A stretch of DNA of 64,000 nucleotides. Origin: Brevundimonas sp. M20. Its GTDB lineage: Bacteria > Pseudomonadota > Alphaproteobacteria > Caulobacterales > Caulobacteraceae. The position numbers were made by a program, and so were the translations under genes. The notes below the pieces were generated by a model. It was given only the letters and a program-made list of their open reading frames with translations, made no database searches and was not told the origin of the DNA. The stretch covers positions 2,371,001-2,435,000 of the forward strand of contig NZ_CP041243.1 of NCBI RefSeq assembly GCF_006547065.1, in the 5' to 3' direction. Positions 6,082-28,146 of the stretch are shown one piece after another. Each line of letters begins with the position of its first letter. Within the stretch, counting starts at the first letter, position 1.

Positions 6082-6852
6082 ATGACCGCCGTCTCACGCA
6101 TCGAGTCGGCGTATCCCCAACCGGAGACGCCGGACCGCCCGGAGTTTCAGGTCATGCCCACCCCGTCCCCGAAGCCCCGCCGCAAGGCCGAGCAGCGCGC
6201 CGAAAGTCTGGAGCAACTGCTCGATGCCGCCGAGGAGCTGTTCTCGCAGCACGGCTTCTATGGCGTCACGATCAAGGACATCGCCGACAAGGTCGGGGTC
6301 CACAAGTCGCTGGTCCATTACTACTTCGCCGACAAGCAGGACGTGTTCGACAAGGTCATGGCCCGTCGCGCGCCGGTGACCAGCGGACGACGGATGGATG
6401 CGCTGGACGCCTATGAGAAGGCCGCGAACGGCAAGCCGACGGTCGAGGGCGCCCTGCGCGCGTTTCTGGACACCGATCTGGACACCTATTCCAACGGCGG
6501 CGACGGCTGGCGGCATTTCGGGGCCCTGAGCGCCCAGATCAACAACACCCCGGCCTGGGGCGCGGAGGTGATGGACCGGCTGTACGATCCCGTCGTGCTG
6601 CGTCTGATCGGCCTGCTGAAACAGGCCCTGCCCGAGGCGGCGGAAGAAGACATCTTCTGGGGCTACCACTTCGTGACCGGCGCCCTGACGCTGAGCCTCG
6701 CCCGGACAGGCCGGATCGATCACCTGTCCGGCGGCAAATGCCGATCCGACGACTTCGACGCGATCAAGGAGCGGATGGCCGCCTTCATGGCCCACGGCTT
6801 CATCGGCGTCTGCCGGGATCGCGCGGCGGCGCGACAGGGGACGCAGGGATGA
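6082..6852 (+). CDS. TetR/AcrR family transcriptional regulator
   Basis: This 256-residue protein has an N-terminal helix-turn-helix (LLDAAEELFSQHGFYGVTIK through VHKSLVHYYFADKQDVFDKV) after an unusual extension of roughly 35 residues rich in proline and charge. The C-terminal ligand domain is TetR-like, with a cluster-typical HFGALSAQINNTP segment. ATG 6082 is chosen because GGAGG lies 8 nt upstream; an earlier ATG at 6067 sits inside the ligase gene. It ends in an ATGA overlap with the next gene. It is the likely repressor acting at the inverted repeat at 2129-2162, relieved by a pathway intermediate such as an acyl-CoA; that is inference. Confidence 0.88.
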   Translation: MTAVSRIESAYPQPETPDRPEFQVMPTPSPKPRRKAEQRAESLEQLLDAAEELFSQHGFYGVTIKDIADKVGVHKSLVHYYFADKQDVFDKVMARRAPVTSGRRMDALDAYEKAANGKPTVEGALRAFLDTDLDTYSNGGDGWRHFGALSAQINNTPAWGAEVMDRLYDPVVLRLIGLLKQALPEAAEEDIFWGYHFVTGALTLSLARTGRIDHLSGGKCRSDDFDAIKERMAAFMAHGFIGVCRDRAAARQGTQG

Positions 6853-8096
6853 CGGCGCGCGACCTGCCCTTCGCCTCCAGCCCCGAAGCGCTCGGCTTCG
6901 ACCCGCAAGGCCTCGCGTCGCTTGACGGGTACATGTCGGGAATGGTGGAGAGCGGCAAGGTCGCCGGGACATCCACCCTGCTGATCCGCCACGGACGTGT
7001 CGCCGCCTTCAGCACCTTCGGCAAGGCCGATCTGGCGGACGACAAGCCGATCGAACGGGACACCCTGTTCCGCATCTATTCGATGACCAAGCCGGTCACG
7101 GGCGTGGCCATGATGATCCTGTACGAACAGGGGCTTTGGCGGCTGGACGACCCGATCACCGACTACCTGCCCGAGTTCATCGGCCAGAAGGTGTTCGCGG
7201 GCATCGCCGACGACGGCTCCATGCTGACCAAAGACGCCATTCGCGCGCCAACCATGCGCGAGCTGATGAGCCACACCACCGGCCTCGGCTACGGCCTGTT
7301 CGACGTGCATCCGGTTGAACGCGCCTATCGCGAGAGCGGCGTGATGATGGCCGACAGCCATGAGCAACTGGCCGAACGCGCCGCCCGCATCCCGCTGATG
7401 TTCCAACCGGGAACCGAGTGGTTCTACTCCATCGCCACGGATCTGCAGGCGCTGGTGGTCAAACGGCTGTCGGGGATGAGCTTCGCGGACTTCCTGCGCA
7501 CCCGCATCTTCGAGCCGCTCGGTATGGCCGACACCGGCTTTCATGTGCCCGCTGATCAGGTCCACCGGCTGGCCGAGATGTACTGCGACGACGGCGCGGG
7601 CGGCCTCAGAGTCGCGACCGACGCCTTCGACATGCCGATCAACGACTATACCCGCCCGCCCCGGTTCGAGGGTGGCGGCGGGGGGCTGGTCTCGACGGCC
7701 ATGGACTACGCCCGCTTCTGCCAGATGATCCTGAACCGGGGCGAACTGGACGGCGTCCGCATCCTTAAGCCGGCGACGGTGGACCTGATGGCCACCAACG
7801 CTGTCCCAGAGGCCGTGCTGGACACCACCCACCCGCTGCGCCTGCTGCCCTTCAGCCGCGCCCTGACCTTCGGTCTGGACTTCGCCATCACCGAGGATCC
7901 GAAGCGGCTCGGACTGGTCGAGGGCAAGGGCACACTCAGCTGGGGCGGCGGCGGCGGAACCTGGTTCTGGATCGACCCGGAAAACGACCTGATTTTCGTC
8001 GGCCTGATCCAGCGCATGGCCGACCCGGTGAGCGGCGAGTTCCGCATCCGGGCCCGAAGTCTGACCTACGCCGCCCTGACCCATCCCGAGAAATAG
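6849..8096 (+). CDS. Serine hydrolase, class C beta-lactamase / family VIII esterase type
   Basis: This 415-residue protein has the S-x-x-K nucleophile motif (S78-M-T-K81 in IYSMTKPVTG), the second-motif tyrosine around Y193 in EWFYSIATD, and a glycine-rich GGGGGTWFWIDP near the C-terminus in place of KTG. These are features of beta-lactamase-fold esterases such as EstB rather than true lactamases. No signal peptide is seen, so it is probably cytoplasmic. The start is the ATG of an ATGA overlap with the tetR stop, so the two are translationally coupled. It may cleave the imported ester or an amide; the substrate is unknown. Confidence 0.85.
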   Translation: MTARDLPFASSPEALGFDPQGLASLDGYMSGMVESGKVAGTSTLLIRHGRVAAFSTFGKADLADDKPIERDTLFRIYSMTKPVTGVAMMILYEQGLWRLDDPITDYLPEFIGQKVFAGIADDGSMLTKDAIRAPTMRELMSHTTGLGYGLFDVHPVERAYRESGVMMADSHEQLAERAARIPLMFQPGTEWFYSIATDLQALVVKRLSGMSFADFLRTRIFEPLGMADTGFHVPADQVHRLAEMYCDDGAGGLRVATDAFDMPINDYTRPPRFEGGGGGLVSTAMDYARFCQMILNRGELDGVRILKPATVDLMATNAVPEAVLDTTHPLRLLPFSRALTFGLDFAITEDPKRLGLVEGKGTLSWGGGGGTWFWIDPENDLIFVGLIQRMADPVSGEFRIRARSLTYAALTHPEK

Positions 8097-15512: not shown

Positions 15513-16394
15513 ATGAGCACCGTTGAGGGTCGGCTGCGTATCGCCGTCCAGAAATCCGGCCGTTTGTCCGAACGCAGTCTCGATCTGGTCCGCGATGCGG
15601 GCCTGCGCGTGGTGAAGGGCAACAACGACCTGCTGTATCGGGTCGAGAACTATCCCATCGACCTGCTCCGCGTGCGCGATGACGACATTCCCACCTTTGT
15701 CGCCGACGGCGTCTGCGATCTGGGAATCGTCGGCGAGAATGTGCTGGAGGAGGGCCGCAACGGCGGGCCGGTCGCGCAGGTGGTAATGCCGCTGGGCTTC
15801 GGCAAATGCACGCTGAAGATCGCCGTGCCGCCGACACTGGACTACGCCGGGCCCGCCTCGCTGGACGGCAAGCGGATCGCCACCTCCTATCCGCGCGTCC
15901 TGCGCCGCTATCTGGAGGCGCAGGGCGTCAGCGCCGACATCGTCACCATGCGCGGCGCGGTCGAGGTCGCGCCGCGGCTGAAGCTTGCCCACGCAATCTG
16001 TGACCTGGTCTCCACCGGCGCGACCATCGAGGCGAACGGCCTGTCGGCGCGGGACACCGTGCTGGACTCGCAGGCGGTGCTGATCCGCTCGCCCGTCGCG
16101 CCCGAGCCCCAACTGGCCGAACTGCTGGACAGCATCATCGAACGAATGAGCGGCGTCGTCGCCTCCCAGGGCGCCAAATACGTGATGCTGAACGCCCCGC
16201 GCGCGGCGCTGGACCAGATCACCGCCATCCTGCCGGGCGCCGGCGCCCCGACGGTCATGCCCCTGTCCGGCCGGGACGACGCCGTGGCCGTGCACGCCGT
16301 TTGTCAGGAAGCCGTGTTCTGGGAGACGCTCGAGAAGCTGAAGGGCGCGGGGGCCTCGGCCATTCTGGTGCTCCCCATCGAGAAGATGATGTGA
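15513..16394 (+). CDS. hisG: ATP phosphoribosyltransferase (long form)
   Basis: HisG joins ATP and PRPP in the first step of histidine synthesis. The 293-residue length and the C-terminal segment (EKLKGAGASAILVLPIEKMM) indicate the long form with its own ACT-like histidine-binding domain, which does not need HisZ. The N-terminal RIAVQKSGRLSE and DLGIVGENVLEE match the catalytic domains, and the PRPP site is near residues 160-175 (DLVSTGATIEANGL). Its stop overlaps the hisD start (TGATGA). Feedback inhibition by histidine is expected from the family. Confidence 0.95.
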   Translation: MSTVEGRLRIAVQKSGRLSERSLDLVRDAGLRVVKGNNDLLYRVENYPIDLLRVRDDDIPTFVADGVCDLGIVGENVLEEGRNGGPVAQVVMPLGFGKCTLKIAVPPTLDYAGPASLDGKRIATSYPRVLRRYLEAQGVSADIVTMRGAVEVAPRLKLAHAICDLVSTGATIEANGLSARDTVLDSQAVLIRSPVAPEPQLAELLDSIIERMSGVVASQGAKYVMLNAPRAALDQITAILPGAGAPTVMPLSGRDDAVAVHAVCQEAVFWETLEKLKGAGASAILVLPIEKMM

Positions 16395-17716
16395 TGACCC
16401 GGCTGATTGGAAACATCATCGACTGGTCGTCGCTGGACGCCGCCGGTCGCCGCGCCGCCCTCGCGCGCCCTGCCCGCCGCAGCGAGGCGCAGGTCACCGA
16501 CGGCGTGCGCGCCATCTTCGACGACGTGCAGGCGGGCGGCGGCGCGGCAGTCACCGACTGGAGCCTGAAGCTGGACGGCGCCGCGCCACGCCGCATCGCC
16601 ATCACGGACCAAGTGGTGGCCGACGCCCGCGCATCACTCCCGCCCGCCGCCACCCGCGCCCTGAAGATCGCCGCCGAGAACGTCCGGATCTTCCATCAGG
16701 CCACCCGGCCCGACGGCAGCCAATGGATCGAGACCCGGCCCGGCGTCCGTTCGAGAATCGTATGGCGACCCATCGGGTCGGCGGGTCTTTATGTTCCGGG
16801 CGGCACTGCCCCCCTGTTCTCGTCCCTGCTGATGCTGGCCATTCCGGCCCAGGTGGCGGGGGTGGCGCGACGCGTGGCCGTAACGCCGCCGTCGAAGGAC
16901 GGCCGGCCCCACCCGGCCATGATCGTCGCGGCCGCCGAGGCCGGACTGGACGCCCTGTGGCTGATCGGCGGCGCGCAGGCCATCGCGGCGCTGACCTTCG
17001 GCGCGACGTTCGAAGACGGCGAGATCGAGCCCGTGGCCAAGCTGTTCGGTCCCGGCAACGCCTGGGTCGCGGAGGCCAAGAAGCAGGCCAGCGCCCTCCC
17101 CGGCGGCCCCGCCGTCGACATGCCCGCCGGGCCGTCTGAGCTGCTGGTCATCGCCGACCGGGACGCCGACGCCGTGGTCGCCGCCGCCGATCTGCTCAGT
17201 CAGGCCGAGCACGACCCGGACGCCCAGGTCGTGCTGGTGTCCGAGAGCAAGGGCCTGATCGACGCCGTGCTGGACGAGCTGGAGCTTCAGCTCGAAACCC
17301 TGCCCCGCGCCGACATCGCCCGCGCGGCCCTGTCCGAAGGGCGGGTCATCCGGGTGAAGAGCGTCGCCGAAGCCTGCGAGGTCTCGAACCTCTATGCCCC
17401 GGAACACCTCGCGCTTCAGGTGCTGGATGCGGAAAAGCATGTCGAGCGGATCACCGCCGCAGGCGCTGTGTTCGTCGGCCCCTACGCCGCCGAGACCTTG
17501 GGCGACTACGCCGCCGGGCCCAGCCATGTCCTGCCGACCGACGGCGGAGCACGGACCCTCGGCGGGATCACCACCGCCAGCTTCATGACCTCCATGTCAG
17601 TCCAGAGCGTGAGCGCCGCAGGCGCCGCCGGTCTGGCGCCGGTGGCCGCCCAGCTGGCCCGGATGGAAGGGCTGGAAGCCCACGCCCGCGCCGCCGACCT
17701 GAGGTCGGGCCAATGA
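16394..17716 (+). CDS. hisD: Histidinol dehydrogenase
   Basis: This 440-residue NAD- and zinc-dependent enzyme catalyses the last two oxidations, histidinol to histidinal to histidine. The sequence shows the glycine-rich VPGGTAPLFSSLLM region, the family signature GPGNAWVAEAKKQ, the zinc-site segments LSQAEHDPDAQ and APEHLALQV, and GPSHVLPT. The start is the ATG overlapping the hisG stop by one base; a GTG three bases earlier is possible. The stop overlaps the next start by 4 nt. Confidence 0.95.
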   Translation: MTRLIGNIIDWSSLDAAGRRAALARPARRSEAQVTDGVRAIFDDVQAGGGAAVTDWSLKLDGAAPRRIAITDQVVADARASLPPAATRALKIAAENVRIFHQATRPDGSQWIETRPGVRSRIVWRPIGSAGLYVPGGTAPLFSSLLMLAIPAQVAGVARRVAVTPPSKDGRPHPAMIVAAAEAGLDALWLIGGAQAIAALTFGATFEDGEIEPVAKLFGPGNAWVAEAKKQASALPGGPAVDMPAGPSELLVIADRDADAVVAAADLLSQAEHDPDAQVVLVSESKGLIDAVLDELELQLETLPRADIARAALSEGRVIRVKSVAEACEVSNLYAPEHLALQVLDAEKHVERITAAGAVFVGPYAAETLGDYAAGPSHVLPTDGGARTLGGITTASFMTSMSVQSVSAAGAAGLAPVAAQLARMEGLEAHARAADLRSGQ

Positions 17717-19149
17717 AGAACCTGCCCGCCCCCTTCGCCCCGCTGGTCGCGGGTGGTGAAGGTCTGGATCGCTATCCGGCCGCGCCCGCCGCGCTCACGG
17801 CCCGGATGGGCGAGGTCTACGGCCTGCCCGCCGGTCAGGTGCTGCCGGTGCGGGGGCTCACGCACGGGCTGGAGCTGGTCTTTCGCCTCGCCGCCCGCGA
17901 CGGCCTGAAGGTCGAGGCGCCGGACGCCGAGCCCTACCGCTCGCTTGCCGCCCTCTATCGCACGGCAGCCCCACAGGCCGAGACCGGAGCCGTCATCGTG
18001 CGCGCCCTCGGTTCTCCCGAAGCCGTGGCCGAAATGGCCGCTCGGGTGGCGCCTGCCCTGCTGGTCGTGGACGAGGGGATGGCCGAGTACGCCGACGCCG
18101 CCTCGGCCGCTGAAGCCGTTGGAGAACAGCAGAACCTGATCGTTCTGCGCAGCCTGTCGATGGCCTACGGCCTCGCGGGCGCCCGTGTGGGGGCGGCGCT
18201 GGGTCAGCCGGAGGCGCTGGCGCAACTGGCTTCGGTGCTGGAGCCCTATGCCCTGCCGGAAGTCTCGGTGCGGCTGGCCCTGCAGGCGCTCGATCCGTCC
18301 CGCCTGATCGAGACGAAGGAACGTCTGGGGGCCGTCCGGCGTGAGCGGGAGCGACTGGCCAAGGCCCTGTCGCGCGAGATGACCATTGAACCCGGCTTCG
18401 GCCCGGTCCTGATGGCGCGCCCATCCGATCCCGGGGCCGTGCTGGCCGTCCTGACCCGCTACGGCGTCGTCGCCGAGCGCGCGGGCGACCGCCTGCGTCT
18501 GCCGGTCTCCGCCAAGATGGAGATCAACGACCGCCTGCTGGTCGCGCTGGACCTCGCCCCCGCCAAGGCGCGCGCCAATCGCACCGGTCAGGCTGTGCGC
18601 GACACCAAGGAGACCCGCATCGTCTGCGCCGTCGATCTGGACACGACCGGCCCGGTCGTGATCTCGACTGGCGTCGGCTTCTTCGACCACATGCTGGAGC
18701 AGATCGCGGCGCACGGGGGCTTCTCCCTGACCCTGTCGTGCGAGGGCGACCTGCACACCGATCCGCACCACACCATCGAGGACAGCGCCATCGCGCTGGG
18801 TCTGGCGCTGAAGCAGGCGCTGGGCGCGCGCCGCGGCATCGCCCGCTATGGCTTCATCCTCGCGATGGACGAAGCCGAGGCCCATGTCGCCATCGACCTG
18901 TCGGGGCGGCCCTATCCGCTGTTCGAGGGAACGTTCGCCACGCCCTTCATCGGCGAGTACCGCACGGATCTGACGGCCCACGTCTTCCGCTCTCTGGCCG
19001 AGGCCATGGGCGCCGCGGTCCACATCAAGGTCACCGGCGACGACGACCACCACAAGACCGAGGCCGCCTACAAGGGTTTCGGCCGCGCCCTGCGTCAAGC
19101 GATCCGCGTCGAGGGCGAAGCGGTGCCGTCGACCAAGGGTGTTCTGTGA
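17713..19149 (+). CDS. hisB: HisC-like pseudo-aminotransferase fused to imidazoleglycerol-phosphate dehydratase
   Basis: This single 478-codon frame has two parts. Residues about 289-478 are a complete HisB dehydratase (RDTKETRI, GFFDHML, DPHHTIED, GDDDHHKTEA, VPSTKGVL), which makes imidazole-acetol phosphate. Residues about 1-285 align by eye to histidinol-phosphate aminotransferase (HisC), whose reaction comes next in the pathway. The PLP lysine motif SLSKAxGLAG reads SLSM150AYGLAG, the VDEAY tyrosine is M123 (VDEGM), and an NPNNPTG block is not visible. Only D120 and the arginine in GLAGAR persist. The domain is therefore likely not a transaminase and may be structural or regulatory. The frame is intact with no frameshift sign. 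A working hisC must lie elsewhere. Confidence 0.88.
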   Translation: MKNLPAPFAPLVAGGEGLDRYPAAPAALTARMGEVYGLPAGQVLPVRGLTHGLELVFRLAARDGLKVEAPDAEPYRSLAALYRTAAPQAETGAVIVRALGSPEAVAEMAARVAPALLVVDEGMAEYADAASAAEAVGEQQNLIVLRSLSMAYGLAGARVGAALGQPEALAQLASVLEPYALPEVSVRLALQALDPSRLIETKERLGAVRRERERLAKALSREMTIEPGFGPVLMARPSDPGAVLAVLTRYGVVAERAGDRLRLPVSAKMEINDRLLVALDLAPAKARANRTGQAVRDTKETRIVCAVDLDTTGPVVISTGVGFFDHMLEQIAAHGGFSLTLSCEGDLHTDPHHTIEDSAIALGLALKQALGARRGIARYGFILAMDEAEAHVAIDLSGRPYPLFEGTFATPFIGEYRTDLTAHVFRSLAEAMGAAVHIKVTGDDDHHKTEAAYKGFGRALRQAIRVEGEAVPSTKGVL

Positions 19150-19748
19150 AATCCGTCACCATCCTCACCTATGGCGCGGGCAACGTCGCCTCGGTCCAGT
19201 TCGCGCTGGAGCGGCTGGGGGCCGCCGTGCGCCTGACCAGCGACCCGGCCGATGTGGCCGAAGCCGAGCGGCTGATCCTGCCGGGCGTAGGTCAGGCGGG
19301 CTACGCGATGTCGCGACTGGACCAACTCGGCCTGACCGACGCGATCCGCGCCTTCCCCCGCCCCCTGCTGGGCGTCTGTCTGGGCCAGCAACTTCTGTTC
19401 GCCGACAGCGATGAAGGCGGCGGCACGCCACTGCTCGGCCTCATCCCCGGGCGCGTCTCCAGACTGGAGCCCGGCCCCTCCCTGCCCGTGCCCCACATGG
19501 GCTGGTCACGGCTGGAGGTGACGCAGGCCGATCCCCTGCTCGAAGGCTTGGGCGATGACGACTGGGCCTATTTCGTCCACGGCTTCGTCTGCCCCGACGG
19601 CCCCGCCACCCTTGCGCGGGCCGACTACGGCGGCGTGGTTCCGGCGGTGGTCCGTCAGGCCAATCGCTGGGGTTGCCAGTTTCACCCGGAGCGTTCGGCC
19701 AAGGCCGGGGCCCGCATCCTCAAGAATTTTCTGGAGCTGGACGCATGA
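19146..19748 (+). CDS. hisH: Imidazole glycerol phosphate synthase, glutaminase subunit
   Basis: This 200-residue class I glutamine amidotransferase supplies ammonia to HisF. The nucleophile cysteine is in GVCLGQQLLF and the His/Glu pair in CQFHPERS; the N-terminal TYGAGNVASVQ is typical of HisH. Translation starts at a GTG that overlaps the preceding stop by 4 nt, and it ends in an ATGA overlap with hisA. Confidence 0.95.
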   Translation: MKSVTILTYGAGNVASVQFALERLGAAVRLTSDPADVAEAERLILPGVGQAGYAMSRLDQLGLTDAIRAFPRPLLGVCLGQQLLFADSDEGGGTPLLGLIPGRVSRLEPGPSLPVPHMGWSRLEVTQADPLLEGLGDDDWAYFVHGFVCPDGPATLARADYGGVVPAVVRQANRWGCQFHPERSAKAGARILKNFLELDA

Positions 19749-20475
19749 TCGTCTATCCGGCCATCGACCTGCGCGACGGCGTCTGCGTTCGCCTGATGCA
19801 CGGCAAGTTCGATCAGGTGACCCACTATGACGATGCGCCGCCCAAACGACTGGCGGCCTTCCGCGCGTCAGGCGCGACCTGGGCCCACATCGTCGATCTG
19901 GACGGCGCCGAGGCCGGGCGCGCCATGCAGCATGAGCTGATCGGCGAACTGGCCTCGGCCATCGACATCCGTATCCAGTCCGGCGGCGGCGTGCGCAGCG
20001 CCGATGATGTCGCACGCCTGCTGGACGCCGGGGTCAGCCGCGTCGTGGTCGGCTCGCTGGCCGTGACGAAGCCGGACGAGGTGCTGGGCTGGCTCGAGCG
20101 CTTCGGCGCCGACCACATCACCCTGGCCATCGACGTGAAGGCCGACGGCGATCGCTATGTCCCGGCGCTGAAGGGGTGGACCGAAGCCGCCGACGTGGAC
20201 CTGTGGACCGCGCTCGAGCGCTATCCGGTCGGCAGCGCCAGACACCTGCTGGTCACCGATGTGGGGCGCGACGGCGCCCTGACCGGGCCGAACCTCGACC
20301 TGCTGGCCGAGATCCACCAGCAGCGCCCCGACCTGTGGCTTCAGGCCTCGGGCGGGGTTGCGGACCTGACCGATCTGACCGGCGCCCGTTCTGTCGGATC
20401 GTCCGGCGCCATCATCGGCCGCGCCCTCTACGAGGGCCGCTTCACGCTGGAACAGGCGCTGGAGACCGCCCGCGC

Positions 20476-20479
<4 letters not shown>
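19745..20479 (+). CDS. hisA: ProFAR isomerase (phosphoribosylformimino-AICAR-P isomerase)
   Basis: This 244-residue TIM-barrel enzyme opens the ribose ring of ProFAR. The catalytic aspartate is in YPAIDLRDG and the second in [13 protein letters not shown]. The phosphate-binding segments IQSGGGVRS and QASGGVADL are the half-barrel repeats shared with HisF. It has 4-nt overlaps with hisH and hisF. Confidence 0.95.
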
Positions 20480-21239
<760 letters not shown>

Positions 21240-21243
<4 letters not shown>

Positions 21244-21857
21244 TCGATCCGAACACCCTCGACTTCGCCAAGGGCGACGGCCTGATCCCGGTTGTGGTGC
21301 AGGACGCCGCGACCCTTCAGGTGCTCACCCTCGCCTATATGGACCGCGCCGCCTTCGACGAGACGGTGGACAGCGGCGAGGCGACCTTCTTCTCGCGCTC
21401 GCGCGGCGGGCGCTGGCGCAAGGGCGAGACCTCGGGCGACCGGCTGCACGTCGTCTCGATCACGCCTGACTGCGACAGCGATGCGCTGGTGCTGAAGGTC
21501 CGCCCGGTCGGCAACGCCTGCCACCTGAACCGGGTCAGCTGCTTCGGCGAAGAGGACGCGCCGGGCGTCGGACGTCTGGCCCGGCTGGAGCAGACCATCG
21601 CCGTCCGCGCCGCCGCCGATCCGGCTGAAAGCTGGACCGCCCGTCTGCTGGCCGAGGGGCCCAAGCGGGTGGCCCAGAAGGTGGGCGAGGAAGGCGTCGA
21701 GACAGCGCTGGCCGGAGCCGCCGGACCGGATGAGGAACTGGCCTCCGAAGCCGCTGACCTGATCTATCACCTGCTGGTCCTGCTGCACGCCCGTGGGCTC
21801 GGGCTGCAGGACGTTCTGGACGTGCTGGCGACGCGGGCGGTGAAGACCAGTCACTGA
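21240..21857 (+). CDS. hisI: Bifunctional phosphoribosyl-AMP cyclohydrolase / phosphoribosyl-ATP pyrophosphatase
   Basis: This 205-residue protein carries out steps 2 and 3 of histidine synthesis. The HisI part (residues about 1-115) has [15 protein letters not shown] and the metal site [11 protein letters not shown] plus [11 protein letters not shown]. The HisE part (about 120-205) has [17 protein letters not shown] and a metal-binding helix [15 protein letters not shown]. It is the last his gene of the operon. Only 44 nt separate it from the next gene, and I see no terminator hairpin with a T-tract, so read-through into the following cluster is plausible. Confidence 0.93.
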
Positions 21858-21901: not shown

Positions 21902-22897
21902 ATGACGCCGATGACGTTGACCGGTTTCGGGGCCTATGCGCCGCGCGACCAACGCCCCTCGACGGTGCTGGACACCCTCTTCGGCCAGCCGGAGGGCTGG
22001 ACGGAAAGCCAGTTCGGCATCGCCACGCGCGGCGTCGCCTCCGCCGAGGAAACCACTTCCGCCATGGGCGTCGAGGCCGCGCGCAAGGCGCTGGCCATGG
22101 CCGGCTGGGCGGCGGACAATCTCGACGTCATCATCGGCGCCTGCGGGGTGATGGAGCAGCCGATCCCCGGCACATCGGTGCTGATCCAGCAAGCGCTGGG
22201 CCTCGGCAAGTCCGGAGTCTGGGCCTTCGACGTGAACCAGACCTGCCTGTCCTTCGTCACCGCCCTGGACATCGTGGCCATGGGCTTGGAGACCGGCCGC
22301 TTCCGCCGGGCGTTGATCGTGTCCAGCGACATAGCCTCGGCCGGTCTGGACTGGGGCACGCCCGCCTCCGCCGCCATCTTCGGCGACGGCGCCGCCGCCG
22401 TCTGCATCGAGGCCGGGACAGGCGGAGGCGGCCCGGCCCTGCTGGCGCGCGGGTTCGAGACCTATGGCGACGGCAAGGACCTGGCCACCCTACGCAGCGG
22501 CGGCACCCGCATCCGTATCGAGCATGGACTCGAGGCGCTGACGGAAGGCGCCCGCTTCCACATGGACGCCTTCGGCATCTTCAAGGCCGCCGCCCGCTGC
22601 CTGCCGGACCTGATCGACAGGGTGCTGGGCGAGGCCGGGCTGACCCGAGACTCCGTGGACGTCATTGTGCCCCATCAGGCCAGCAAGCCCGGCGTGGAGC
22701 ATGTGCGTCGCCTGATGGGCGGAGACCCGGCCCGCGTAATCGACATCTTCAACACCCACGGCAACCAGATAGCCGCCTCCCTGCCCACCGCCCTGACCCT
22801 CGCGCAGGCTGAGGGTCGGCTGACCCCGGGCAAGACCGTCCTGCTGCTCGGCACAGCCGCCGGGATCAGCGCAGCCGCCATGGTGATCCGCACATGA
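21902..22897 (+). CDS. 3-oxoacyl-ACP synthase III-like condensing enzyme
   Basis: This 331-residue thiolase-fold enzyme has the KAS III catalytic triad: C115 (VNQTCLSF), H258 (VPHQASKPG) and N288 (NTHGNQIAAS). It would condense an acyl thioester with a second acyl group. It is more likely a specialised KAS III than housekeeping FabH because it begins a six-gene overlapping operon with no acyl-carrier or fatty-acid gene nearby. Possible analogies are OleA-type head-to-head condensation or a pathway-starting beta-ketoacyl synthesis; the sequence alone does not decide. It is in the same orientation as the his operon and only 44 nt after it. Confidence 0.85.
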   Translation: MTPMTLTGFGAYAPRDQRPSTVLDTLFGQPEGWTESQFGIATRGVASAEETTSAMGVEAARKALAMAGWAADNLDVIIGACGVMEQPIPGTSVLIQQALGLGKSGVWAFDVNQTCLSFVTALDIVAMGLETGRFRRALIVSSDIASAGLDWGTPASAAIFGDGAAAVCIEAGTGGGGPALLARGFETYGDGKDLATLRSGGTRIRIEHGLEALTEGARFHMDAFGIFKAAARCLPDLIDRVLGEAGLTRDSVDVIVPHQASKPGVEHVRRLMGGDPARVIDIFNTHGNQIAASLPTALTLAQAEGRLTPGKTVLLLGTAAGISAAAMVIRT

Positions 22898-23883
22898 CCC
22901 GTCGCGCACTCGTCACCGGCGCCACCGGCGGGCTGGGACTGGCCGTGGTCGAGGCTCTGCTGGCCGCCGGCTATTCGGTCCGCGCCTCGGGCCGCAAGCC
23001 GGAAGCGTTGGAGCGGCTCAAGGCCATGGGCGCCGAGCCCTTCGGCGGCGATCTGCTGGACCAGACCGAAGCCGCGTGCCGTGACATCGACGTCGTCTTC
23101 CACGCCGCCGCCCTGTCCAGCCCATGGGGACCGGACGCCGATTTCGAGCGCGCCAATGTCGAACTGACCCGCCGCCTGCTGGACGCCGCCAGAAACGCCG
23201 GGGCCGACGGCTTCATCTTCGTTTCGTCGCCGTCCGTCTTCGCCCGCTGGGGAGACCAGACCGATCTGACCGAGGACAGCCTGCCCAATCCGCGCCCGCT
23301 CAATGCCTACTCCCGCACCAAGGGCGAGGCCGAACGGATGGTCCGCGCCGCGGATACGACGGGCTTCCGCACCGTATCCCTTCGCCCCCGCGCCATCGTC
23401 GGGCCGGATGATCAGGTGCTGCTGCCGCGCATCCTGAGGCTGGTGAAGAAGGGACGCTTCCCCCTGTTCCGGGGCGGCAAGGCCATGGTCGAGCTGACCG
23501 ACAGCCGCGACGCCGCCCGTGCCCTGCTGCTGGCCGATCTGCATCGCGAACGAGCAGGCGGGCAGGTGGTCAACATCACCTCGGGCCGCCCGACGGCTCT
23601 GGCCGATCTGGTCGGCAAGCTGGGGCAAGCGCTGGGCGTGGAGGTGAAGATCATCCCCGTGCCGCTGGTCATCGGGCAGGTGATGTCCGTGCTGTCCCAG
23701 ACCGTCAGCCGCCTGCTGCCCGGCCAGCCAGAGCCGGTGCTGACGCCCTACACCCTGTCCACTCTGGCCTGGTCCCAGACCTTCGACCTGTCCGGCGCCA
23801 AGCGCCTGATCGATTACGAGCCCCGGCACGACGCCATCGAAACCGCCATGCAGATGGCGCCCGAACTGGCGAAGCGGGCGTGA
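22894..23883 (+). CDS. NAD(P)-dependent extended SDR, 3-beta-HSD/OleD-like reductase
   Basis: This 329-residue extended short-chain dehydrogenase has the N-terminal TGATGGLGLAVVE cofactor motif and the active-site pair Y139-x3-K143 (YSRTKGEAE), preceded by SSPSVFARW. The layout matches the 3-beta-hydroxysteroid dehydrogenase group that includes OleD, which reduces the 2-alkyl-3-keto acid made by OleA. Paired with the condensing enzyme upstream, reduction of a beta-keto product to a beta-hydroxy acid is a reasonable inference. The start overlaps the previous stop by 4 nt. Confidence 0.82.
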   Translation: MTRRALVTGATGGLGLAVVEALLAAGYSVRASGRKPEALERLKAMGAEPFGGDLLDQTEAACRDIDVVFHAAALSSPWGPDADFERANVELTRRLLDAARNAGADGFIFVSSPSVFARWGDQTDLTEDSLPNPRPLNAYSRTKGEAERMVRAADTTGFRTVSLRPRAIVGPDDQVLLPRILRLVKKGRFPLFRGGKAMVELTDSRDAARALLLADLHRERAGGQVVNITSGRPTALADLVGKLGQALGVEVKIIPVPLVIGQVMSVLSQTVSRLLPGQPEPVLTPYTLSTLAWSQTFDLSGAKRLIDYEPRHDAIETAMQMAPELAKRA

Positions 23884-24725
23884 CCCGTTGCCGGGTGCAT
23901 ATCCTGCGCGCCGGGGCGTGTTCGCATCCGGAGGTGATGACCCGGCGTGACGGCGGCCTGAATCCCGCGGTCTTCCCGGCTCTGGCCGCCCTGATCCTGC
24001 ACCCGGTCGAGGGCGCGATCCTGTTCGACACCGGCTACGACCCCGCCTTCTTTGAAGCGACCAGGACCTTTCCGGAAATTCTCTATCGCTGGATGACCCC
24101 GGTTGATCTGGGACCGGGCGAGGCGGTGGCGGACCAACTGCCCGACTTCGGCATTCGCCCGGAGGAGGTCCGCGCGGTGATCGTGTCCCATTTCCACGGC
24201 GACCACATCGCCGGTCTGAAGCGCTTTCCGAACGCCCGCATCTTCTGCGCCCGGGCGGGGCTGGCGCAGGTGCGCAAACCGGGCCGGTTCGCGCGGGTGC
24301 GGCAGGGCGTGCTGGCCGATCTGGCGCCGGCCGATATCGACGCCCGCGCCGCCTTCTTCGAGGACCACCCCCGCCTGCCGCTCGGTCCCGACCTGTCGCC
24401 GTTCGAGGACGGCGCCGACCTGCTGGGCGACGGCTCGCTGATGGCGGTCCAGCTCCCCGGCCATTGCCCCGGTCACTGGGGGCTGGTCGTGCGGCAGGAG
24501 GACGGACGCACCCGCTTCCTGATCGCCGACGCCGCATGGTCCAGCGGCGCCGTGCGCGACAACGCCCCGCCCCCGCGCCTGACCACCGCCCTGCTGGGCG
24601 AGACCGGGCCATGGCGCGACACCCTGACGGCCTTGCACCGGCTGTGGAACCGCAATCCCGAACTGCTGCTCACGCCCTCCCACTGCGGCGAGGTCGAGGT
24701 GGAGGCGCCGCGTGGGCGCGGTTGA
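23880..24725 (+). CDS. Metallo-beta-lactamase-fold hydrolase
   Basis: This 281-residue MBL-fold protein has the zinc motif H104-F-H-G-D108-H109 in VSHFHGDHIAG, further ligands likely in LPGHCPGHWG and LIADAAW, and a last histidine in SHCGEVEV. The pattern resembles lactonases (AHL-lactonase type) and thioesterase-like members. Translation begins at a GTG overlapping the SDR stop by 4 nt. In this operon it could open a lactone or hydrolyse a thioester intermediate; that role is inferred. Confidence 0.82.
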   Translation: MTRCRVHILRAGACSHPEVMTRRDGGLNPAVFPALAALILHPVEGAILFDTGYDPAFFEATRTFPEILYRWMTPVDLGPGEAVADQLPDFGIRPEEVRAVIVSHFHGDHIAGLKRFPNARIFCARAGLAQVRKPGRFARVRQGVLADLAPADIDARAAFFEDHPRLPLGPDLSPFEDGADLLGDGSLMAVQLPGHCPGHWGLVVRQEDGRTRFLIADAAWSSGAVRDNAPPPRLTTALLGETGPWRDTLTALHRLWNRNPELLLTPSHCGEVEVEAPRGRG

Positions 24726-25971
24726 TCGCCCCGCCGTCCTGCGCGCCTGGCTGGACGCCCGCTGGACCGGCTCGCGCCTGACCACCCGCGCCGCCATCGA
24801 GGCCCGACAGGCCCGACTGTGGGCGGACCTGACACCCACACTCGCCCGGACGCCCGCTGTCGCGGAACTGGCCGGACAGCCGCTGGACGCCTTCCCCATC
24901 ACCACTCCGAACGATGTCCGCGCGGACTTCGACCGCTGGAACACCCTCGGCCTGACCCGCGCCGAGACCGAGGCCGCCGCCCATGCCGCCGAGCAGGGCG
25001 GGACCGGCGAGGTCCGTCCAGGCGTGGTCGCCGGCTTCTCGTCCGGCTCGTCTGGACCTCCCGGCCTGTTCGTCAGCGGCAAGGCCGAGCGCGCCGCCTA
25101 TCTGGGCCACATGATCGCGCGGCTGATGCCCAAGTCCGCCCTGTTCCGGAAGAAGCGGATCGCGCTGAGCCTGCGCGCGACGTCGAAGCTCTACAGCGAC
25201 GTCTCCGGCGCCGGGCCGTTCCGCTTCCTGTTCCTGGGGCTGGACATGCCGACGGCGGAGAAGCTGGACCGTCTGGACGCCTTCGCGCCCCACGTCCTGA
25301 TCGCCCCCGCCCATGTCCTGTCCGAGCTGACGCATGGGGTGGAAACCGGCGCTCCATGGCGGCCAGCCCGTCTGTTCTGGGGCGCCGAGCCCATGGGGGA
25401 GACCGAGCGTGACTGGATCGAAGCCACGCTGGAGAGCCGCCCCGCCCCCATCTATCAGGCCACGGAGGGCTTCATCGGCGCCCCCTGCGTACACGGCGCC
25501 CTGCACCTGAACGAGGATGTGCTGATCATTGAGCGCGAACCCGTGCCGGGAACCAACCGCTTCCTGCCGGTCATCACCGACCTGCGGCGCGTGACACAGC
25601 CGATGATCCGGATGCGCCTGCCCGATCTGCTGGAGCCTCTGTCCACGCCCTGCCCCTGCGGCACCGCGCGGCTGGCGGTCCGGCCGGTCGAGGGCCGGCT
25701 TGAGGACCTGTGGCGATGGGGCGAGACGGTGATCCCGCCCCGCGCCGTGGACGAGGCCGTCAGCGCCGTCCTGCCGCCCGGCGAGGACTGGCGGGCCGTC
25801 GCCGGACCGGCCGGCGTCCGGGTCGAGGCCGCCGCCGACAGCATGGAGGCCGTGGCCGGGGCGATCCGCGCCCTGCTGGCCGACAAGGGGATCGACCTCC
25901 CCGTCACCGCACGGAGCGCGCCTGAACCGTTCGCCGTCAAACGTCGCCGCGTGCGCTGGTCTGATGGCTGA
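24712..25971 (+). CDS. F390/CoF-synthetase-like adenylate-forming enzyme
   Basis: This 419-residue protein belongs to the PaaK/F390-synthetase-like branch of adenylate-forming enzymes. It has a serine/glycine-rich P-loop (FSSGSSGPPG, residues 109-118), a central FWGAEPMGETER, and a Q-A-T-E-G segment corresponding to the adenine-binding motif, followed by CPCG (C314, C316), a possible metal-binding feature of this branch. A GTG start with GGTGGAGG shortly upstream overlaps the previous gene by 14 nt. It probably activates a carboxylate as an acyl-adenylate, passing it to CoA, an amine or an alcohol. Its role would parallel OleC in the olefin pathway, though it is from a different branch. Confidence 0.75.
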   Translation: MGAVDRPAVLRAWLDARWTGSRLTTRAAIEARQARLWADLTPTLARTPAVAELAGQPLDAFPITTPNDVRADFDRWNTLGLTRAETEAAAHAAEQGGTGEVRPGVVAGFSSGSSGPPGLFVSGKAERAAYLGHMIARLMPKSALFRKKRIALSLRATSKLYSDVSGAGPFRFLFLGLDMPTAEKLDRLDAFAPHVLIAPAHVLSELTHGVETGAPWRPARLFWGAEPMGETERDWIEATLESRPAPIYQATEGFIGAPCVHGALHLNEDVLIIEREPVPGTNRFLPVITDLRRVTQPMIRMRLPDLLEPLSTPCPCGTARLAVRPVEGRLEDLWRWGETVIPPRAVDEAVSAVLPPGEDWRAVAGPAGVRVEAAADSMEAVAGAIRALLADKGIDLPVTARSAPEPFAVKRRRVRWSDG

Positions 25972-27136
25972 GCACATCCTGATCACCGGCGCCCGGTCCG
26001 TCGCGGCGCTGGACATCGCCCGCAGCCTCCGCGTCGCCGGGTTCGAGCCCCATCTGGCCGACTGCGTCCCGGCCCGGCTGGCGCGATGGTCGAACAGCGC
26101 CGGGCCGGTGCATCGCCATGCCTCGCCGGTACAGCAGCCCGCCGCCTTCGCCGCCGGCATTCGCGCCCTGATCAATCGGCTGGAGCCGGTGTGGATCATC
26201 CCGACCTGCGAGGAGGTCTTCCATCTGTCGGCGCTGGCGACCGCTGACGGCTGGTCTGACCGGCTACTGGCTCCCCGCCCGCAGCCGTTGGCCGAGCTTC
26301 ACGCCAAGGACCGCTTCGTCGCCTTGTGCGCCCGGCTGGGCCTGCCGACGCCGGAAACCCGGACAGTGACCGATCCCGCCGACCTGTCACAGGCCGTCAC
26401 CGACATGGGCGATGTGGTGATCAAGCCGGTGTGGTCCCGTTTCGGTGAGGCCCTGATCTCGCCGTCCCCCGCCGCCGTCGCGCGCATCCGACCCACCGGA
26501 GACCGGCCATGGATCGTCCAGCGACGCATCCGGGGCGAAGAGGTCTCCTTCCATGCCGTCGCCCACGCGGGACAGATAGCGGCCTTCAGCGCCTACGGCT
26601 CGGACTGGAGGCTGCCCGGCGGCGCGGCCTATGCCCTCCACCCTCTGCCCGACCCCCTGACCACCGAGTTGCGCCGGATGGGCGATGCGCTCGCGCCCGA
26701 GGTCGGGACCGGTCAGTTCGCCTGTGACGCGTTGGTCGACGACGTCGGGCGCCCCTGGCTGATCGAGTGCAATCCGCGCGCGACCAGCGGGGTGCATCGG
26801 TTCGGCGCCGATCCCGCATTCGCCTTGGCCCTGATCGGTCGGGGAGAGGCGACGCCCGACCCGACGCCCCGCCATATCGCCCCCGCCCTGTGGCGCTACG
26901 GCCTGCCCGCCGCCCTGCGCGAGCGTCGCCTGACCGGGTGGCGGCGGCAGAGGCGCGACGGTCTCGACGCCCTGACCCGCCCCGGCGACCGCGCGCCCCT
27001 TGCCGGCGCCCTGATCGACACCCTCGGCTTCGCCCTGCGCGCGCTGCGACAGCGTCAGTCGCTGACCGCCGCCATGACCGCTGATATCGAGTGGAACGGA
27101 GCGCCGCTTTCCCCCGACCGCTGGAGCCGCCCTTGA
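25964..27136 (+). CDS. ATP-grasp domain protein
   Basis: This 390-residue protein has an ATP-grasp fold: an N-terminal preATP-grasp Rossmann segment (HILITGARSVAALDIARSL), the ATP-binding segment VVIKPVWSRFGE, PWIVQRRIRGEEVSFHAV, and the Mg-binding LIECNPRATSG (E268, N270). ATP-grasp enzymes form amide, ester or thioester bonds via acyl-phosphates. A C-terminal arginine-rich region follows. It overlaps the previous gene by 8 nt. It likely ligates the activated or free acid to a partner in this pathway; substrate unknown. Confidence 0.8.
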   Translation: MAEHILITGARSVAALDIARSLRVAGFEPHLADCVPARLARWSNSAGPVHRHASPVQQPAAFAAGIRALINRLEPVWIIPTCEEVFHLSALATADGWSDRLLAPRPQPLAELHAKDRFVALCARLGLPTPETRTVTDPADLSQAVTDMGDVVIKPVWSRFGEALISPSPAAVARIRPTGDRPWIVQRRIRGEEVSFHAVAHAGQIAAFSAYGSDWRLPGGAAYALHPLPDPLTTELRRMGDALAPEVGTGQFACDALVDDVGRPWLIECNPRATSGVHRFGADPAFALALIGRGEATPDPTPRHIAPALWRYGLPAALRERRLTGWRRQRRDGLDALTRPGDRAPLAGALIDTLGFALRALRQRQSLTAAMTADIEWNGAPLSPDRWSRP

Positions 27137-28146
27137 CGCCCCTGCCCGAAAGCCTGTCCCGCAGCTGGCAGATGGCCGCCCTGTCGCGCGATGTGGGACG
27201 CAAGCCGCTGGCCCGCACCGTCGCCGATACCCCGCTGGTCCTTTTCCGGGGCGCCGACGGCGCGATCGCCGCCCTGATCGACCGCTGCCCGCACCGGAAC
27301 TATCCGCTTTCCGAAGGCAAGCTGGTCGGGGGCGCGATCCAGTGCCCTTATCACGGTTGGCGCTTCGCCCCCGACGGCGCCTGCGTCGAGGTTCCCGGCT
27401 GCGCCCTTTCCGAAAGCGAGGGCGCGCGTCTGGCCGCCGCTCCGGTCGAGGTGCGCGAACTGAACGGCGCGGTTCTGATCCGCCTGTCGCCCGGCGGCCC
27501 CGACCTGCCAGACCTCGGCCCGTGGGGCGCAGAGGATCACGATCACTTCTGGTGGTCGCAGGGCGTCTGGGGCGGCCGGGCTCTCGATGCGTTGGAGAAT
27601 GTGCTGGACCCGTTCCACACCAACTTCATCCACGACGGCATCATCCGCCGCAGCAGCCGTCGCATGCCCGTGCGCCTGTCGGTCCGGGCGGGGACGGACT
27701 GGATCGAGTCGATCATCGAACAGCCCCAGCCCGACCTCGGCTGGATGTCGCGCCTGCTGGAGCCGCCGCGGGATCGCAGCATCACACGCCTGCATGCGCC
27801 CACTCTGGTTCAGGCGCGGTGGGAGGGACCGCGCGGCCTGACCCTGTGCGTGACGGTCTTCTTCACCCCCGTGACCCCGACCAGCCTGATGCCCTTCGCC
27901 TGCTTCACCACGCCGAAGGGGCGTGGCCCCGGCTGGCTGAAGGAGCGCGCCATCCGCCTGTTTCTCGATCCCGTGGTCAGACAGGACCGCGAGGCGCTGG
28001 CACGGCAACTGGACAATATCGAACGCTTCGGCGCCCCGCGTTTCCTGCAAGGCCCCGGCGATCTGCTCGGCGCCCGGGTGGCGCAGCTCTATCAGGGGCA
28101 GTCACTGGAACCGGCCGAAGAAGGCCCGTTCGACCATCAACTCTAG
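27133..28146 (+). CDS. Rieske-type ring-hydroxylating/oxygenase alpha subunit
   Basis: The Rieske cluster motif C52-P-H54 ... C71-P-Y-H74 lies in the N-terminal domain, and the mononuclear iron site N156-x2-D159-x2-H162-x4-H167 in ENVLDPFHTNFIHDG follows, so this is an oxygenase catalytic component of about 337 residues. No reductase or ferredoxin gene is nearby, so electrons must come from elsewhere. I prefer a TTG start at 27133 because its 4-nt overlap and a GGAG 6 nt upstream fit the operon; a GTG at 27091 would add 14 residues. It could hydroxylate, demethylate or desaturate the pathway product. It ends 4 nt before the convergent GST gene. Confidence 0.85.
   Translation: MTPLPESLSRSWQMAALSRDVGRKPLARTVADTPLVLFRGADGAIAALIDRCPHRNYPLSEGKLVGGAIQCPYHGWRFAPDGACVEVPGCALSESEGARLAAAPVEVRELNGAVLIRLSPGGPDLPDLGPWGAEDHDHFWWSQGVWGGRALDALENVLDPFHTNFIHDGIIRRSSRRMPVRLSVRAGTDWIESIIEQPQPDLGWMSRLLEPPRDRSITRLHAPTLVQARWEGPRGLTLCVTVFFTPVTPTSLMPFACFTTPKGRGPGWLKERAIRLFLDPVVRQDREALARQLDNIERFGAPRFLQGPGDLLGARVAQLYQGQSLEPAEEGPFDHQL

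Follow-up and report, generated by a model that had tools for sequence, protein, structure and literature searches.

A six-gene operon in Brevundimonas sp. M20

We analyzed a 64,000-nucleotide stretch (the window) covering positions 2371001-2435000 of the 3.3 Mb single-contig genome of Brevundimonas sp. M20. It carries an operon of six plus-strand open reading frames (ORFs) spanning window positions 21902-28146. The first four genes, which we call the core, encode a beta-ketoacyl-acyl carrier protein (ACP) synthase III (KAS III; 21902..22897, +) with ACP_syn_III and ACP_syn_III_C matches, an extended short-chain dehydrogenase/reductase (SDR; 22894..23883, +; Epimerase) resembling OleD and 3-beta-hydroxysteroid dehydrogenases, a metallo-beta-lactamase-fold hydrolase (MBL; 23880..24725, +; Lactamase_B) and an adenylate-forming enzyme of the PaaK/F390-synthetase kind (F390-like; 24712..25971, +). 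They are followed by an ATP-grasp ligase (25964..27136, +; PRK06849-like) and by the alpha-type subunit of a Rieske oxygenase (27133..28146, +; Rieske and VanA_C), which together form the module described below as type I. Pfam and NCBIfam matches confirmed the families that a preliminary description of this DNA had assigned to all six genes.

Successive genes overlap by 4, 4, 14 and 8 nt, and the last junction depends on the start codon chosen for the Rieske gene. A mechanical choice, the GTG at 27091, gives a 46-nt overlap with the ATP-grasp gene; with TTG at 27133, the likely start, the overlap shrinks to 4 nt (TTGA) and the N-terminus resembles those of relatives. The range of 4-14 nt described previously for the six genes is correct because the TTG start yields 4 nt. 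The ratio of nonsynonymous to synonymous substitutions (dN/dS), a plain Nei-Gojobori estimate, was at most 0.46 across the genes compared (0.12-0.46 in Brevundimonas pairs, the window Rieske gene being compared with a single relative, and 0-0.32 between two E. coli copies). The operon genes are thus under purifying selection, and with its overlapping genes, this constraint and the catalytic motifs kept wherever they were checked, the six-gene operon is real.

Families and catalytic residues of the core enzymes

Residues were counted in cleanly picked ORFs (76 KAS, 75 OleD-like, 68 MBL and 44 Rieske rows, window included), the gene calls in unannotated loci being longest-ORF picks. Each residue of the KAS triad Cys115-His258-Asn288 was present in 76/76 sequences. 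The catalytic glutamate of OleA is E117 and that of PpyS E105 (PMC4578411); at the equivalent KAS position, 88, we found Ile in 58, Leu in 15 and Val in 3 of the 76 sequences, and Glu in none. CorB and MxnB, the ketosynthases of corallopyronin and myxopyronin, were the best matches of the KAS in the PDB, and in a profile search both scored above every FabH among the matches listed. Against the PRK07204 beta-ketoacyl-ACP synthase III family (NF005541) the window KAS reached 331 bits, below the cut-off of 402.

In a phylogenetic tree the cluster KAS and MxnB/CorB fell together on one side of the branch leading to FabH (support 100/100), the outgroup consisting of three FabH rows only and the long-branch row ownKAS2505k being excluded. 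Within that side, MxnB and CorB grouped with the KAS of loci L122 and L092 (99/97). An approximately unbiased (AU) test disfavoured a group of cluster KAS without MxnB/CorB (p 0.0053), this group having been defined after an earlier tree had shown it. These results suggest that the antibiotic ketosynthases nest inside the cluster KAS family and may have been recruited from it. The two enzymes share with the cluster KAS the Cys-His-Asn triad and a hydrophobic residue at the OleA/PpyS glutamate site; they differ in their setting, since they serve polyketide assembly lines, whereas here the KAS stands in a small operon with a reductase, an MBL and an adenylating enzyme. The same genome encodes a second KAS III, which is FabH-like (G000:C1:1852630-1853586).

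The SDR keeps its catalytic Tyr139 and Lys143 in 75/75 sequences. Its best NCBIfam match is OleD, with 167 bits against the cut-off of 580 bits of the OleD equivalog NF042422. The preliminary description had likened the first two enzymes to those of the Ole pathway, a likeness that is not supported, given a KAS lacking the OleA/PpyS glutamate and grouping with MxnB/CorB and a reductase so far below the OleD threshold. The nearest relatives of the MBL are 4-pyridoxolactonase and N-acylhomoserine lactone (AHL) lactonases; the motif HxHxDH, His195 and Asp217 were each kept in 68/68 sequences and His268 in 67/68. The best family of the window F390-like protein is TIGR02304 (F390 synthetase-related), at 185.6 bits under a curated cut-off of 251.9, and the family name itself states no function. 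We rejected both the F390 and the AHL-lactonase labels as functions and use them as family names only. F390-like homologues in Brevundimonas (P0020, P0022 and others) carry the NCBI-derived name "cell division protein FtsA", to which family matches give no support.

The core recurs across phyla

A scan with an F390 alignment of one genome per species gave 576 encoding stretches, the best 80 of which were analyzed; some of these come from the same strains as 20 loci fetched first. Among those 20, from relatives and other Pseudomonadota, the KAS, OleD-like, MBL and F390-like genes occurred together in 17; L044-L046, where the F390 match was weak or missing and the core absent, were dropped from later comparisons. 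The 80 loci comprise 70 from Pseudomonadota (40 Alphaproteobacteria), three from Bacillota, two from Melainabacteria, one unassigned, and one each from Myxococcota, Bdellovibrionota, Verrucomicrobiota and Cyanobacteriota. Within 7.5 kb of the F390-like gene, present in 80/80 by construction as the search gene, we found KAS in 76, OleD in 76 and MBL in 75 loci. Module genes were less constant over the same distance: ATP-grasp in 54 loci, Rieske in 45, GNAT in 21, PAP2 in 17, fatty acid (FA) hydroxylase in 13, TetR in 12, FA desaturase in 11 and SDR in 5.

The order KAS-OleD-MBL-F390, sought in other genomes as the preliminary description had proposed, occurred with no other named family interposed in 66/80 loci from several phyla. 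Junctions were spaced between -80 and 120 nt in 54/63, 61/64, 61/61 and 47/48 cases, with start codons picked by script. This co-occurrence is far beyond chance, and the recurring order and junction overlaps support the earlier proposal that the products act together. That proposal had treated the six genes as one set, and this part needs revision: they co-occur, but as a four-gene core with exchanged modules, and in a cyanobacterial sample this core is disrupted more often. The order also varies. A radical SAM gene is interposed in L092, which has no MBL; ATP-grasp lies between KAS and OleD in L100, L106, L112 and L120; L121 and L122 have a different gene order; and the contigs of L103 and L113 are short. 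All four core genes were found in G1226 (L158).

The distribution is patchy. Within the genus, 8/37 genomes, our own included, gave a match below 1e-50 and 29/37 did not; among sampled Pseudomonadota 14/398 matched at 1e-20 and 6/398 exceeded the TIGR02304 cut-off. In the phyla of the cyanobacterium L122 and the Clostridium L106 the counts were 9/194 and 4/199 (E 1e-40), in that of the Verrucomicrobiales member L116 1/194 (E 1e-40), and in two class samples 2/274 and 1/289 (E 1e-60); each of these five counts includes the genome that seeded the search, and distant members may be missed, as at most 8-9 candidates per genome were scored in the phylum samples and at most 6 in the class samples. 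One genome of the same genus (L027, G029) carries a divergent version, its F390-like and KAS proteins being 34% and 49% identical. Its ATP-grasp and Rieske genes are separated by a GNAT-cluster ORF, and together these features suggest a separate acquisition.

Different modules stand beside the core

The type I module, found in the window, consists of ATP-grasp, optionally joined by GNAT and Rieske. Brevundimonas lenta DSM 23960 (L048), for example, has the core followed by ATP-grasp and Rieske genes. The ATP-grasp protein has both the carboxylate-amine ligase fold and the ATP-grasp motif; profile and fold comparisons found relatives of the GAR-synthetase/PurK/PylC type, and a single-sequence search of the PDB gave no match. 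In the Rieske protein the 2Fe-2S ligands were kept in 43/44 sequences and the His176/His181/Asp299 iron site in 44/44. Among five GNAT members scanned, one (L088) matched PF13480 and four had no family match, and searching the PDB with a GNAT profile yielded nothing; among relatives, L106 has its GNAT gene at 6302-7438; public records name GNAT genes at the same place in type I plasmid loci of Paenibacillus and Rhizobium.

The type II module consists of PAP2_3, FA_hydroxylase and FA_desaturase, with PF10118 in addition in two tested Burkholderia-type loci. We presume that PAP2_3 includes inositol-phosphorylceramide synthases. Other enzymes occur more rarely: a GT21 (ceramide-glucosyltransferase-like) and an EryCIII-like glycosyltransferase in a Nodosilinea locus, an EryCIII-like glycosyltransferase in L028, DUF3419, a family that we take to include BtaA, in Maricaulis (L098) with a similar-looking ORF in L109, and a sulfotransferase in L161/L162. 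In L147 (13317-16574) a phosphopantetheine carrier (ACP) and an AMP-binding ligase lie directly upstream of the KAS, which is the clearest clue to the supply of the acyl chain. Fusions of a major facilitator superfamily (MFS) protein, an acyltransferase and an AMP-binding domain, presumably resembling Aas-LplT, were found at L064 and L112. On a tree of 41 F390-like rows (32 of the 33 chosen locus rows, L093 missing, plus eight others and the window), the fewest changes required were 6 for ATP-grasp, 7 for GNAT, 5 for Rieske, 4 for PAP2 and 4 for FA hydroxylase. The modules have therefore been swapped repeatedly.

Copies in E. coli and on plasmids

A type II set of seven genes (KAS, SDR, MBL, F390, PAP2, sterol desaturase family and fatty acid desaturase) occurs in E. 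coli. It was found in 672/5,426 complete genomes, and 671 of these matches cover at least 80% of the 6.9 kb. In CFT073 (L168, 6001-12882) and JJ1887 the set lies between narI and tRNA-Tyr/purU. At the narI-purU site of K-12 MG1655, the only site searched in that strain, we found ychS, tpr/rttR and tRNA genes and none of the seven. The KAS gene of the E. coli cluster is probably c1689, judging by how that gene is annotated and by its position between narX (c1682) and rssA (c1698). A table of transposon fitness factors in PMC3855560 lists c1689 with a value of 8.47; we gave this value no weight because the entries of the table crowd that part of the chromosome.

Among plasmid records there were 26 matches, of which seven were opened. 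Type II was present in E. coli and type I in Paenibacillus and Rhizobium; one Pseudomonas plasmid carried the core only and another MBL and F390 with other core-type genes scattered; the Paracoccus and Ketogulonicigenium records had the core with TetR and a sulfotransferase. Public records use a TIGR02304-type name for the F390 gene of the E. coli and plasmid copies.

A candidate lipid-assembly system and its alternatives

Chain-modifying and headgroup-type enzymes that change beside a core able to condense, reduce, hydrolyse and activate would fit lipid assembly best. We therefore tentatively regard the operon as a type I form of a lipid-assembly system that is modular and widespread, a reading to which we give slightly less than an even chance. 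The KAS would load an acyl chain on Cys115 and join it to a second thioester with an activated alpha-carbon. This partner would be malonyl or, as with MxnB, a beta-ketoacyl group, and the condensation would yield a product of beta-keto or lactone type. The OleD-like SDR would reduce the ketone to a hydroxyl, the lactonase-like MBL would open a lactone or free the hydroxy acid, and the F390/PaaK-like enzyme would adenylate a carboxylate. ATP-grasp could then couple a carboxylate to an amine via an acyl phosphate (amidation), and the Rieske enzyme could oxidise the product with the help of a reductase whose gene lies elsewhere. The last two steps would give way in other lineages to PAP2, FA hydroxylase and desaturase, a glycosyltransferase, a sulfotransferase or DUF3419, working on the same kind of backbone. 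Our comparisons show the gene content and order, the families, the catalytic residues, the constraint and the exchange of modules; the substrates, the order of steps, the joining of two long chains and the lipid nature of the product are all deduced. The sequence of condensation, reduction, activation, ligation and oxidation outlined in the preliminary description appears plausible. Within the window no carrier protein was found, the four phosphopantetheine-binding (PP-binding) matches of the genome all lying outside it, and no reductase of PF00175, the sole reductase family tried; both absences had been remarked upon before.

Several observations weigh against lipid assembly. The common clade with MxnB/CorB does not demonstrate the joining of two chains, and FabH-type elongation fits the residues equally well. 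The window operon has no ACP, acyltransferase or GNAT, and neither Rieske nor ATP-grasp enzymes are confined to lipids; DUF3419, GT21 and sulfotransferase, seen in one or two loci each, could be chance neighbours. The 80 loci were the top-scoring hits of an alignment whose first sequence is the window protein, and half of them are from Alphaproteobacteria. The core is moreover not universal: Asticcacaulis L082, L083 and L090 have neither OleD nor MBL, and L107 and L118 have no KAS. In nine stretches from the cyanobacterial and Clostridium-phylum samples the full core stood together only in L143, L148 and L149, with KAS, OleD and F390 in L147, MBL and F390 in L144 and L145, and F390 alone, no core gene nearby, in L142, L146 and L150 (L145 and L150 being short contigs). 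The split core left our estimate unchanged because the lipid reading depends on the modules and does not require a universal core. The families already bear names in databases, and a search of the open-licence PMC literature found neither a published pathway nor a product for the assembled gene set, in line with the preliminary description. The stand-alone F390-like genes of L142 and L146 are about 50% identical to cluster members.

A serious rival, although on balance somewhat unlikely, is a single-chain product: decarboxylative elongation of the FabH type would lead to a one-tailed beta-hydroxyacyl amide or lipoamino acid acting as signal or surfactant. The FabH-like triad without the OleA-type glutamate, the ATP-grasp fold of an acid-plus-amine ligase and the GNAT genes of 21/80 loci are consistent with it, whereas the profile ranking of MxnB and CorB above all listed FabH and the fully supported split from FabH point away from it. 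We consider it improbable that the operon makes a specialised metabolite, an alpha-pyrone- or lactone-type antibiotic or signal, with the MBL serving to open or detoxify the lactone. In its favour, MxnB and CorB produce alpha-pyrones with antibiotic activity (PMC5724707, PMC4578411); the MBL is closest to lactonases, the genus distribution (8/37) is patchy, a divergent TetR gene adjoins 10/80 loci, and in L161 AMP-binding, PP-binding and nonribosomal peptide synthetase (NRPS) genes lie on the opposite strand at a distance of 2.5-6 kb. Against this stand acyl-chain desaturases and hydroxylases and headgroup-type enzymes, which are generally atypical of such clusters, and an unusually broad spread over phyla.

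An Ole-like route to olefins or beta-lactones, with some enzymes replaced by non-homologous ones, is very improbable. The operon resembles OleABCD in combining a KAS III, a reductase whose top NCBIfam match is OleD and an adenylate-forming enzyme that could stand in for OleC; an alpha/beta hydrolase also adjoins the core in L039 and lies beyond the module genes in L111. However, OleB is an alpha/beta hydrolase and OleC an AMP-binding enzyme, and the six operon proteins include neither an alpha/beta hydrolase nor a PF00501 match, while MBL, ATP-grasp and Rieske are present and the latter two have no place in the Ole pathway. With glutamate in 0/76 KAS and the OleD cut-off missed, we rejected membership in OleABCD. 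That housekeeping or catabolic genes lie together by chance is scarcely credible. Every family has housekeeping relatives, hisIE lies 44 bp upstream and some of the cyanobacterial stretches have a split core, but the gene order recurs across phyla and 29/37 genomes of the genus gave no match below 1e-50. The preliminary description had named a lack of co-occurrence, or housekeeping roles for the genes, as evidence that would speak against it; on the contrary, the core co-occurs across phyla and the genome has its separate FabH, and we rejected chance grouping on these grounds.

Returning to lipid assembly, the ceramide genes of Caulobacter offer a parallel in layout. According to PMC11324152, AasR, AcpR, Spt, CerR and CerS have the roles of acyl-ACP synthetase, ACP, condensing enzyme, reductase and N-acyltransferase; L147 likewise has a ligase, an ACP, a condensing enzyme and a reductase, and other relatives have GNAT, but a ketosynthase occupies the place of serine palmitoyltransferase. 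No pyridoxal phosphate (PLP) enzyme match was found among the six operon proteins, the only ones tested. We would place the gene set among small KAS-based operons for lipids or metabolites, and there is a fair chance that it is something larger. A more specific possibility, which we hold to be unlikely, is an unrecognised class of two-tailed lipids in which the ketosynthase joins two acyl chains, the module chooses the headgroup and MxnB/CorB are later offshoots. Such a class would extend from Brevundimonas to roughly one in eight of the complete E. coli genomes searched and would need neither glycerol acylation nor serine palmitoyltransferase. Should the product be a lipid, the lipid inventories of well-studied strains would lack a membrane or surface component, and there would be an explanation of where MxnB/CorB came from.

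Genomic surroundings of the operon

The gap between hisIE and the operon start is 44 bp, and the close relative L047 likewise has HisF and HisIE ahead of its operon. Co-transcription with the his genes is therefore possible in Brevundimonas sp. M20. By eye, the genes directly upstream (window 16301-21857) are hisD-, hisB-, hisH-, hisA-, hisF- and hisIE-like, and the ORF at 17713-19149 is an apparent fusion of a HisC-like aminotransferase with HisB. Three of the four PP-binding matches of the genome lie with KAS-type ORFs at G000:C1:2330000-2351500 (L171, L172), alongside an ammonia-lyase-like ORF and some 40-63 kb upstream of the six genes, in what looks like a cluster of the aryl-polyene type.

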